64,000 nt of DNA, from the NCBI RefSeq assembly GCF_002927635.1, contig NZ_PRDS01000010.1:1-64000 (forward strand), written 5' to 3'. The translations under genes were made by a program, and so were the position numbers. Below are positions 29,014-30,386 of the stretch, piece by piece (position 1 is the first letter of the stretch; each line of letters begins with the position of its first letter). The stretch comes from Albidovulum inexpectatum. Its GTDB lineage: Bacteria; Pseudomonadota; Alphaproteobacteria; Rhodobacterales; Rhodobacteraceae. Below the pieces are notes generated by a model, which worked only from the letters and a program-made list of their open reading frames with translations, had not been told where the DNA came from and did no database searches.

Positions 29014-29072
29014 TTCCCGGCGGATGGTCCGTGGGAACCAAGTCTCCGCAACCTTGTAAAAACGGATCCGAC

Positions 29073-29699
29073 ATGACCCGCAAGCTTCTTCCCGGCATCC
29101 TTGCCATGGCCGCCATCGTCGTGGCGGCGAACATCCTGGTCCAATTCGTGATCGATGGCCTCTACCTGACCTGGGGCGCGTTCACCTATCCGTTCACCTT
29201 TCTGGTCACCGACATCACCAATCGCCTGTATGGCCCCGCCGCCGCGCGCCGGGTCGTCTTCGTGGGTTTTGTCGTGGGCGTGATCTGCTCGCTGATCGGC
29301 ACGCAGATCGTCGGCGAATTCGGCCCGCTGGTGACGCTGCGCATCGCCATCGGCTCGGGCGTGGCCTTCCTGACCGCCCAGCTTCTGGACGTGGCGATCT
29401 TCCACCGGCTGCGCGACGCCGCCTGGTGGCGGGCGCCGCTGGCCTCGACGCTGGTCGGCTCTGCGGTCGATACCGCGCTGTTCTTCACGATCGCCTTCGC
29501 AGCCTCGCTGAGCTTCCTCGAGCCGGGCAACGACGTGTCCTGGGCCGGGGGCGCGGTGCCGCTTCTGGGCTTTGGCCCCGAGGCCCCGTTGTGGATGTCG
29601 CTGGCCACCGCGGACTGGATCGTGAAACTGTCTCTGGCGATCGTTGCACTGGTGCCATTCCGGGCCATTGTCGGCCGGTTGAGCGCACAGGTAGCGTAA
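29073..29699 (+). CDS. yhhQ: queuosine precursor transporter (YhhQ type)
   Basis: YhhQ/QPTR proteins import preQ0 or preQ1 for queuosine tRNA modification. The 208-residue protein has about six membrane segments and the family pattern: GAFTYPFTFLVTDITNRLYGPAAARRVVFVGF, and an acidic segment before a final helix. Length is typical. ATG 29073 gives MTRKLLPGILAMAAIVVAANILVQF; a GTG at 29031 would add a non-conserved stretch. It is monocistronic, with the arfB leader promoter beginning only about seven bases after its stop. Confidence 0.85.
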   Translation: MTRKLLPGILAMAAIVVAANILVQFVIDGLYLTWGAFTYPFTFLVTDITNRLYGPAAARRVVFVGFVVGVICSLIGTQIVGEFGPLVTLRIAIGSGVAFLTAQLLDVAIFHRLRDAAWWRAPLASTLVGSAVDTALFFTIAFAASLSFLEPGNDVSWAGGAVPLLGFGPEAPLWMSLATADWIVKLSLAIVALVPFRAIVGRLSAQVA

Positions 29700-29705
29700 A
29701 AGATT

Positions 29706-29736
29706 TTGACAAACACAAAATCTGTGGCAGCCTGTC
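29706..29736 (+). promoter_or_regulatory. candidate promoter of the arfB leader
   Basis: TTGACA (29706-29711) is a full -35 consensus immediately after the yhhQ gene. At 17-18 bases spacing the -10 region is only weakly consensus (AGCCTG/GCCTGT), as is common in high-GC alphaproteobacteria. Transcription would start near 29740, about 30 bases before the leader ORF. Confidence 0.45.
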
Positions 29737-29752
29737 ATCAACGGCAACCCGG

Positions 29753-29769
29753 AGAAAGGAGGTGATCCA
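29753..29769 (+). promoter_or_regulatory. full-length Shine-Dalgarno before the leader ORF
   Basis: AGAAAGGAGGTGATCCA is complementary, base for base over 17 positions, to the 3' end of bacterial 16S rRNA (ending GGATCACCTCCTTTCT). AGGAGG ends 7 bases before the GTG at 29770. Ordinary ribosome sites elsewhere in the window pair over 4-7 bases, so this one stands out strongly. Confidence 0.8.
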
Positions 29770-29826
29770 GTGTCTAGAGTGATATTGGAGAGAGGCGTCG
29801 GGACAGTCAGGGGAGCCGTGACCTGA
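29770..29826 (+). CDS. 18-codon leader peptide upstream of arfB
   Basis: GTG 29770 to TGA 29826 encodes MSRVILERGVGTVRGAVT (GTG read as Met). It is preceded by the exceptional Shine-Dalgarno at 29753. The 3' third of the ORF contains the first arm (CAGTCAGGG, 29804-29812) of the leader's first hairpin, so translation would open that hairpin. There is no run of one amino acid as in classical biosynthetic leaders (four Val, three Arg and three Gly scattered). It is too short for normal gene finding. Evidence is the ribosome site and the overlap with the attenuator arms. Confidence 0.65.
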   Translation: MSRVILERGVGTVRGAVT

Positions 29827-29937
29827 GGGCAGCCCCGAAGGTTGTGAACCCTGACTGGGCCTGTCGATCTTCGGCACCCTAACTGGCCCATCTCCGTAGA
29901 TCTCGGAGGGCCGCTCCAACCCGGAGTGGCCCTTTCC
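29801..29937 (+). promoter_or_regulatory. transcription attenuator of arfB (alternative hairpins)
   Basis: Four mutually exclusive pairings can be read. Arm 1 CAGTCAGGG (29804-29812) pairs with arm 2 CCCTGACTG (29849-29857). Arm 2b TGGGCC (29856-29861) pairs with arm 3 GGCCCA (29885-29890). Arm 3 with CTCCG (29885-29896) pairs with CGGAGGGCC (29904-29912). The last overlaps the terminator 5' arm. If arm 1 is free, 1:2 then 3:4 form and the terminator is blocked. If a ribosome covers arm 1, 2:3 forms and the terminator can fold. A small hairpin TGTCG/CGGCA (29862-29876) fits inside 2:3. This is read from complementarity only. Confidence 0.6.
29908..29935 (+). terminator. intrinsic terminator inside the arfB leader
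   Basis: GGGCCGCTCC / GGAGTGGCCC gives ten contiguous pairs (one G-T) with loop AACCC, followed by TTTCC. It lies 32 bases before the arfB start, so transcripts starting at the leader promoter would end before arfB unless the 5' arm is captured by the upstream sequence. Confidence 0.7.
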
Positions 29938-29966
29938 GTTCGCCCCAATCCCCCGGAGCACGCGCC

Positions 29967-30386
29967 ATGCTGCGCATCAATGACGACATCGCCATCGCGG
30001 AATGGGAGCTGACCGAAAGCTTCACGCGCTCGGGCGGGCCGGGCGGGCAGAACGTGAACAAGGTTTCGACCGCCGTCGAACTGCGGTTCGAGGCCGAGCG
30101 CAGCCCGCATCTGAGCGATGCCGTCAAGCGGCGGCTGAAACGTCTGGCCGGACGCCGCTGGACGCAGGACGGGGCAATCGTTCTGCGGGTCGAAGAGACG
30201 CGCAGTCAGGCCCAGAACCGCCAGATCGCCCGCGACCGGCTGGCGGACCTGATCCGCGCGGCGCTGGTCGTGCCGCGCCGCCGTATTCCTACCCGGCCCA
30301 CCAAGGGCAGTATCCGCCGCCGGCTGCAATCCAAGGCAACACGGGCCCAGATCAAGGCGCTGCGCCGTCCGCCGGGCGAAGAATAG
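29967..30386 (+). CDS. arfB: alternative ribosome-rescue factor ArfB (peptidyl-tRNA hydrolase)
   Basis: ArfB enters stalled ribosomes that lack a stop codon and hydrolyses peptidyl-tRNA. The release-factor-type GGQ is in TRSGGPGGQNVNKVSTAVELRF (near residue 28), and the basic C-terminal tail that reads the empty mRNA channel is present (RRRIPTRPTKGSIRRRLQSKATRAQIKALRRPP). Length 139 is normal. ATG 29967 follows CCGGAGCA. Its only upstream promoter candidate leads through the attenuator, which would tie its expression to leader translation. The flippase gene follows 72 bases later. Confidence 0.95.
   Translation: MLRINDDIAIAEWELTESFTRSGGPGGQNVNKVSTAVELRFEAERSPHLSDAVKRRLKRLAGRRWTQDGAIVLRVEETRSQAQNRQIARDRLADLIRAALVVPRRRIPTRPTKGSIRRRLQSKATRAQIKALRRPPGEE

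Follow-up and report, generated by a model that had tools for sequence, protein, structure and literature searches.

Classical ribosome-dependent attenuators, such as the trp leaders, carry a leader open reading frame (ORF) that overlaps alternative helices lying before a terminator.

In Sinorhizobium meliloti, the passages on the duf1127 leader describe a short uORF in which initiation is the sensed event (PMC12218461), and those on rpsU of Flavobacteriales describe an extended Shine-Dalgarno (SD) sequence and regulation by ribosomes in a particular state (PMC9976891). The CC2171 RNA of Caulobacter (Rfam RF01867) is called an sRNA by Rfam, the only label found for it, and neither an ORF nor a 16S complement was found described for it in the literature searched; the relevant part of a Mesorhizobium screen lists a member, MH_s33, and states that, riboswitches apart, all predicted sRNAs except MH_s6 gave RNA-seq products (PMC5596092), and RF01867 is named among the families with improved structures in the passage concerned of the Rfam 15 report (PMC11701678).

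The RNA considered here lies directly upstream of arfB in Albidovulum inexpectatum, within a window of 64,000 nucleotides (the whole stretch of DNA analysed; all features are on the plus strand). An earlier note had read it as a complete attenuator of this ribosome-rescue gene, with four arms switching in the classical 1-2-3-4 order; literature searches on an arfB attenuator or on CC2171 function found no such paper. The best explanation, to which we give a probability of about 0.58, is an independent RNA that can be either translated or closed on itself by folding, but not both at once, and that would act as a sensor of ribosome availability. This reading draws on features absent from the earlier note, namely a 16S complement, a probable promoter of its own, kinship with CC2171 and a conserved internal anti-SD.

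Probable kinship of the RNA with the CC2171 family

The candidate stand-alone RNA (29740-29936, with an inferred 5' end) is flanked upstream by a gene for a queuosine-precursor transporter (29067-29699; TIGR00697, 103.7 bits) and downstream by arfB (29967-30386; NF006718, 173.8 bits, and PF00472), whose identity is thereby confirmed. A model built from the Rhodobacterales RNAs (R1) matches the locus at 29741-29935, and RF01867 aligns over its full length (model positions 1-159 of 159) at 29746-29933, with 34.8 bits and an E value of 5e-6, below the gathering cut-off of 75; the alignment takes in both the 16S-complementary 5' block and the 3' hairpin, and the family consensus starts with the same 16S complement, GAAAGGAGGUGAUCCAGUGUCU. 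The sole Rfam match above cut-off in the 64-kb window is the serC leader (RF00517; 17736-17787, plus strand, 73 bits). None of seven related loci gave an RF01867 match at the gathering cut-off; in wider draws the family was found in 61 of 289 class genomes, nine of them above the cut-off, and in one of 14 control genomes, that of Caulobacter.

The Rhodobacterales sample comprises 68 RNAs, the window (L086) included: 38 were extracted from 56 of the 80 arfB loci scanned (those of L042 and L050 are cut by a contig end), and 30 more came from a family pattern search. The pattern of that search, AAGGAGGTGATCCANTG, is present in 91 of 198 family genomes, one copy each, and its class counterpart, GAAAGGAGGTGRTCNNRTG, in 80 of 385 class genomes, with a single copy in 79 of the 80; both backward controls gave 0. 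The one genome of this draw with two exact copies (G209, both on C1) may hold paralogues. Some of the class matches are ordinary longer ORFs (L150, L170, L171 and perhaps L156); the first three of these encode small proteins of 54-57 codons with signal-peptide-like starts; they share the 19-nt pattern, and inspection by eye shows no body of the CC2171 kind. A looser pattern matched 91 of 299 genomes in a phylum-wide draw, other classes among them (backward control, 5), and the matches in other classes show scattered spacings, as ordinary strong SDs would give.

At E <=1e-3, R1 picks up 49 of the 51 class loci; L150 and L171 are among these, the former an ordinary longer ORF that still scores 42.6 bits. 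When 45 of the 51 loci are scored with a version of the model lacking the SD block (R2), the best match has 23.5 bits, and the matches are weak and often confined to the hairpin. Because R2 is weak and R1 also matches L150, CC2171 membership rests largely on the SD block and the architecture, and on these grounds the element looks like the form that the CC2171 RNA of alphaproteobacteria takes in Rhodobacterales.

The RNA probably has its own promoter and terminator, and its transcript ends are predicted ones. A putative promoter lies at 29706-29733 (TTGACA, 29706-29711; CAGCCT, 29728-29733); ttTTGACa and TGTGGCAnnCT are conserved upstream of GGAGGTG in Rhodobacterales, and in 47 class loci -35-like and -10-like matches accumulate around positions -54 and -31 relative to GGAGGTG. 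The scores of a -35/-10 consensus scan in Rhodobacterales do not beat those of shuffled sequence, and a sigma-70 scan of the locus listed no promoter. At the other end, the terminator hairpin given in the earlier note is present (29905-29935), with a poor U tract, TTTCCGTT, and separated by 31 nt from the arfB ATG (29967); a strict terminator scan of the locus listed none.

The 16S complement and the tiny ORF

Positions 29753-29770 (AGAAAGGAGGTGATCCAG) are an exact complement to the last 18 bases of 16S rRNA; they also form the SD, and their last base is the G of a GTG start codon. The reference is a 53-nt sequence that we take to be the 16S 3' end with its exact mature terminus; it matches 237 plasmid records, with 100% identity in the best 30 of the 237, and the identical matches among those listed come from Rhodobacter, Paracoccus, Gemmobacter, Azospirillum, Rhizobium and Sphingomonas plasmids. 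The plasmid collection used lists no RNA genes, and the 16S 3' end could be read in none of 21 genomes checked. A 15-mer of the complement has a single copy in the genome sequence. The longest match to the 16S tail is 15-18 nt in 48 of the 68 Rhodobacterales RNAs, 11-12 nt in 19 and 8 nt in one; among 45 class RNAs (L144, L145, L150, L156, L170 and L171 of the 51 loci excluded) it is 14-18 nt in 37 and 11-12 nt in eight, and upstream of 305 control ORFs it never exceeds 9 nt. A chance SD is rejected by these controls, together with the once-per-genome pattern counts and the empty backward searches.

In the window RNA, the duplex with 16S rRNA is worth -35.8 kcal/mol against an opening cost of 14.0, a net gain of -21.8 kcal/mol. 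Such an 18-bp duplex could simply park 30S subunits, with the start region held in a helix, and in the class RNAs the start region does pair with the segment before the terminator; this role as a trap is nevertheless barely plausible, since the ORF is conserved, so that a bound 30S subunit must at times initiate. Pairing of the SD with the rest of the RNA exceeds that of shuffled sequences only modestly (z<0 in 51 of 68 Rhodobacterales and 38 of 45 class RNAs). The idea that the 'TWIxAS' codons of the class RNAs fully mimic the 16S tail was dropped, and mimicry is not claimed, because it held only modestly against shuffles.

The 18-codon ORF described earlier is present at 29770-29826 (VSRVILERGVGTVRGAVT; codons 29770-29823, TGA 29824-29826), and frame tests now place it beyond chance. 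Its length is exactly 18 codons in 61 of the 68 Rhodobacterales RNAs, and in 62 when L054, for which the script chose a TTG start, is read by hand from its GTG alternative; the others have 13, 13, 17, 20, 24 and 26 codons. Within the first 13 codons of the 68 RNAs there is one in-frame stop (in L054), compared with 29 and 43 in the other frames, and changed codons have a mean BLOSUM62 score of +0.82, compared with -0.68 and -0.46. In the class, ORFs of 12-32 codons occur in 44 of 51 loci (21 and 14 in the other frames), and 43 of the 51 have 18-27 codons. The tiny ORF thus looks translated by its sequence signature, and an untranslated RNA is rejected by the frame signature in Rhodobacterales together with the class ORFs. 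In the passages concerned of Schrader et al., which do not name CC2171, Caulobacter intergenic ncRNAs are reported as not translated (PMC4117421); this result speaks against translation, unless CC2171 escaped notice there or was in its closed state under the condition used.

ORF length is conserved far more than ORF sequence. The translated-frame signature in both samples and the LExGVGT core, conserved in Rhodobacterales, would suit a simple mRNA that has a very strong SD and encodes a functional micropeptide; the peptide is otherwise poorly conserved, however, with codons 13-18 variable while the stop keeps its position, and class peptides, from other orders, have little in common beyond MS. 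In addition, the conserved codons coincide with the strands of the helices P1 and P2 described below, and in 65 of 68 RNAs GGAG closes codons 6-7, although Glu has another codon, so a function of the peptide as such appears quite improbable. The match to the 16S tail and the ORF with its marks of translation point to what is probably a ribosome-responsive switch, rather than a private on/off switch of arfB.

Helices, terminator and linkage to arfB

Two alignments were used, A1 with 65 of the 68 RNAs plus the window (L103 and L106 excluded for wrong 3' ends), and A2, which begins at the start codon and comprises the window plus 37 further RNAs (L091, L092 and L094, all divergent, are among those excluded). 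The consensus fold of the 38 RNAs of A2 has three helices: P1, in which ORF codons 6-11 pair with CCGRC..CAC-CUCC; P2, formed by arms 1 and 2; and the terminator. In this fold 94.1% of cells are paired, compared with 87.6% in shuffled alignments (0/500), and at most 55.1% in slid versions, a comparison that favours the consensus because the structure was derived from the same alignment. In the window, the 5' strand of P1 (29787-29801) pairs with its 3' strand (29883-29895) through 29787-29790:29892-29895, 29795-29797:29889-29891 and 29798-29801:29883-29886, and the four pairs of CUCC form in 38 of 38 rows, three cells as G-U. Arm 1 (29804-29812), inside the ORF as the earlier note had it, pairs 9/9 with arm 2 (29849-29857); four of the five P2 pairs, and eight of the nine counted pairs of the terminator helix, are changed on both sides in some row, and the terminator helix is thus beyond chance by covariation.

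Between-species swaps, for which the arms were placed in 64 of 68 RNAs and 60 were used after thinning, give the same result for P2: an arm 1 with its own arm 2 folds at -13.05 and with a swapped one at -9.01, a cost of about 4 kcal/mol (z -14, 0/2000), while control pairs give z 0.5 and -0.9. The conserved pairing predicted for relatives is therefore strong for arms 1 and 2 and fades thereafter. Arms 2 and 3 do pair 6/6 in the window (29856-29861 with 29885-29890), but conservation is weak: the swap test gives z -4.6 on a broad 32-nt window, and the exact helix has 81.2% of cells paired compared with 79.0% shuffled (54/500), its outer pairs gapped in most rows. The putative antiterminator, arms 3 and 4, can form from 29884-29896 and parts of 29904-29913, but is conserved at chance both by swaps (z -1.3, 186/2000) and as an exact helix (76.3% paired compared with 77.5% shuffled, 471/500). 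The Rhodobacterales swaps give a weak signal (z -2.3) for codons 2-8 against the pre-terminator segment; in the class, where a terminator was found in 41 of 45 RNAs and 38 were used, the start region coevolves with this segment (z -4.9, 0/2000; controls z 0.8 and -1.9, the latter being the pairing of the mid region with the pre-terminator segment, 68/2000).

The 3' strand of P1 contains an internal anti-SD, CATCTCC (29889-29895), which pairs either with the ORF in P1 or with the SD (29758-29764), the latter being a 7-bp alternative also seen in the fold of the trimmed RNA. Once freed by translation, this anti-SD (CCACCUCC) could bind the SDs of other mRNAs, making the element a trans-acting sRNA, and this agrees with the retention of the motif, with an RNA not tied to one neighbour, and with the anti-SD sRNAs reported from alphaproteobacteria in the passages concerned (PMC3927594); the intramolecular pairing already accounts for the motif, and we regard such a role as unlikely. 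Since the 5' strands of P1 and P2 lie in codons 6-15, and the anti-SD has these two partners, folding and translation would exclude each other. What stands of the attenuator proposal is an ORF, immediately 5' of arfB in most Rhodobacterales, in which translation and RNA folding compete.

Translation would have little leverage on the terminator itself. Across four masking states, computed for 67 of 69 entries, the mean pairing probability of the terminator stays at 0.94-0.96, and masking the SD and start, the 5' half of the ORF or all of the ORF hardly alters it; it exceeds 0.5 in 67, 67, 67 and 66 of the 67 RNAs, and is 0.66, 0.84, 0.69 and 0.69 in the window RNA. Because pairing is constant under masking, a terminator switch is not favoured, on thermodynamics alone. 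Compared with the classical 1-2-3-4 arrangement, the element has an ORF overlapping arm 1 and a conserved pairing of arms 1 and 2, with neither a conserved antiterminator excluding the terminator nor a fixed downstream gene.

Linkage to arfB is frequent and incomplete. Among 120 family genomes, R1 matches 107 at E <=1e-6 (weaker matches were excluded from the linkage count) and arfB is present in 112, once below the cut-off; in six genomes arfB occurs without an R1 match at this threshold. The two are on the same strand and within 600 nt in 83 of the 107, or 84 with G118, where a contig end leaves a partial arfB match 50 nt downstream of the RNA. The median gap is 50 nt, and in 48 of the 83 linked genomes it is <=60 nt, which leaves little room for another promoter and indicates that arfB is probably read through from the RNA or from an upstream promoter. 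Short tandem-like repeats (tttgtaca; cgtcggtat) occur in the longer gaps of L006, L046 and L056. In the remaining 23 genomes the RNA has no adjacent arfB: the gene is farther away on the same contig (from 811 nt) or on its other strand in 12, on another contig in 10 (contig ends were checked only at the loci read), and without a match above cut-off in one (G114). Fifteen of these 23 RNAs score at least 119 bits (G010 154, G115 150, G016 149), and in G010, of the same genus, an amidase follows the RNA in place of arfB. The other eight score below 100 bits, and part of the unlinked copies may therefore be in decay or have diverged; some linked RNAs also score low (G101 54, G103 56). The RNA is accompanied by a queuosine-precursor transporter gene like that of the window at 27 of 30 related loci, and five of the six loci in which no arfB was found are among these.

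None of 24 arfB loci from other orders has a 16S match longer than 10 nt in the 500 nt upstream, and thus none carries the RNA there. At distant class loci the neighbouring genes differ (ORFs called by length only), and at four of five loci tested with Pfam a convergent gene comes next (integrase, methionine synthase domain, TetR, dihydroxy-acid dehydratase). A dedicated arfB attenuator, in which leader translation sets terminator against antiterminator in cis, is in agreement with the frequent close linkage, with the covariation of arm 1, inside the ORF, with arm 2, and with the low scores of the eight unlinked copies. The well-preserved unlinked copies, the chance-level pairing of arms 3 and 4, the indifference of the terminator to masking, the bare arfB loci of other orders and the unrelated or convergent class neighbours argue against it; together they reject an attenuator serving arfB only, and leave the dedicated attenuator rather unlikely. 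More generally, a leader with a terminator and an ORF should not be taken for the attenuator of the next gene until the survival of the RNA elsewhere has been checked.

A proposed sensor and the known systems

The preferred reading, an independent RNA with two mutually exclusive states, may be formulated as follows. A transcript of roughly 195 nt, which probably has a promoter and a terminator of its own, would pair through its 5' part with the complete 16S 3' tail and start a tiny ORF. With ready 30S subunits at hand, the 16S tail would win the SD, the ORF would be translated and the fold melted; with few ready 30S subunits, the RNA would close on itself. Since translation and the fold exclude each other, the RNA may serve as a sensor, and the availability of ribosomes, or of initiation, would be reported through its fold, its stability or its freed 3' half; the sensing, the output and the direction of the response are what we infer from this arrangement. 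In most Rhodobacterales the terminator is closely followed by arfB, which would probably be supplied by read-through. A tentative extension, to which we give limited credence, is a class-wide alphaproteobacterial ribosome gauge, with competition of the full complement for free 30S tails, refolding at each round of translation of an ORF whose length is fixed and whose sequence is free, and a trans-acting signal arising from this, and with arfB captured in Rhodobacterales.

By its design the RNA seems made for contact with ribosomes along the entire 16S tail and for translation, and no target gene is fixed to it. Should it indeed sense free 30S subunits, initiation capacity would be gauged directly by an RNA, one that adjoins a ribosome-rescue gene in one order; the anatomy described here offers a testable job for the CC2171 family.

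These features may be set beside the known systems. CC2171 is alike in its full-length alignment, in a consensus with the 16S complement and in the terminal hairpin, and differs in that the window RNA stays below the gathering score (34.8 compared with 75) and its body has diverged. The trp-type attenuators share a leader ORF over alternative helices ahead of a terminator, whereas the Rhodobacterales RNA has no conserved antiterminator, no run of regulatory codons and no fixed downstream gene.

With rpsU of Flavobacteriales, as described in the passages on its SD, the RNA has in common an extended SD and regulation by ribosomes of a particular state; rpsU is, however, an ordinary protein gene of another phylum, and the alphaproteobacterial RNA is structured and stand-alone, with a tiny ORF (PMC9976891). 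The S. meliloti duf1127 leader, in the part of the account that concerns it, likewise has a uORF that senses initiation and a structure that masks an element when ribosomes bind late; it serves a downstream gene, presumably via Rho, whereas the Rhodobacterales RNA has its own terminator and no fixed target (PMC12218461). In summary, the logic proposed for this RNA is the sensing of initiation, much as portrayed for the S. meliloti duf1127 leader, but in an RNA that is not bound to a fixed gene.
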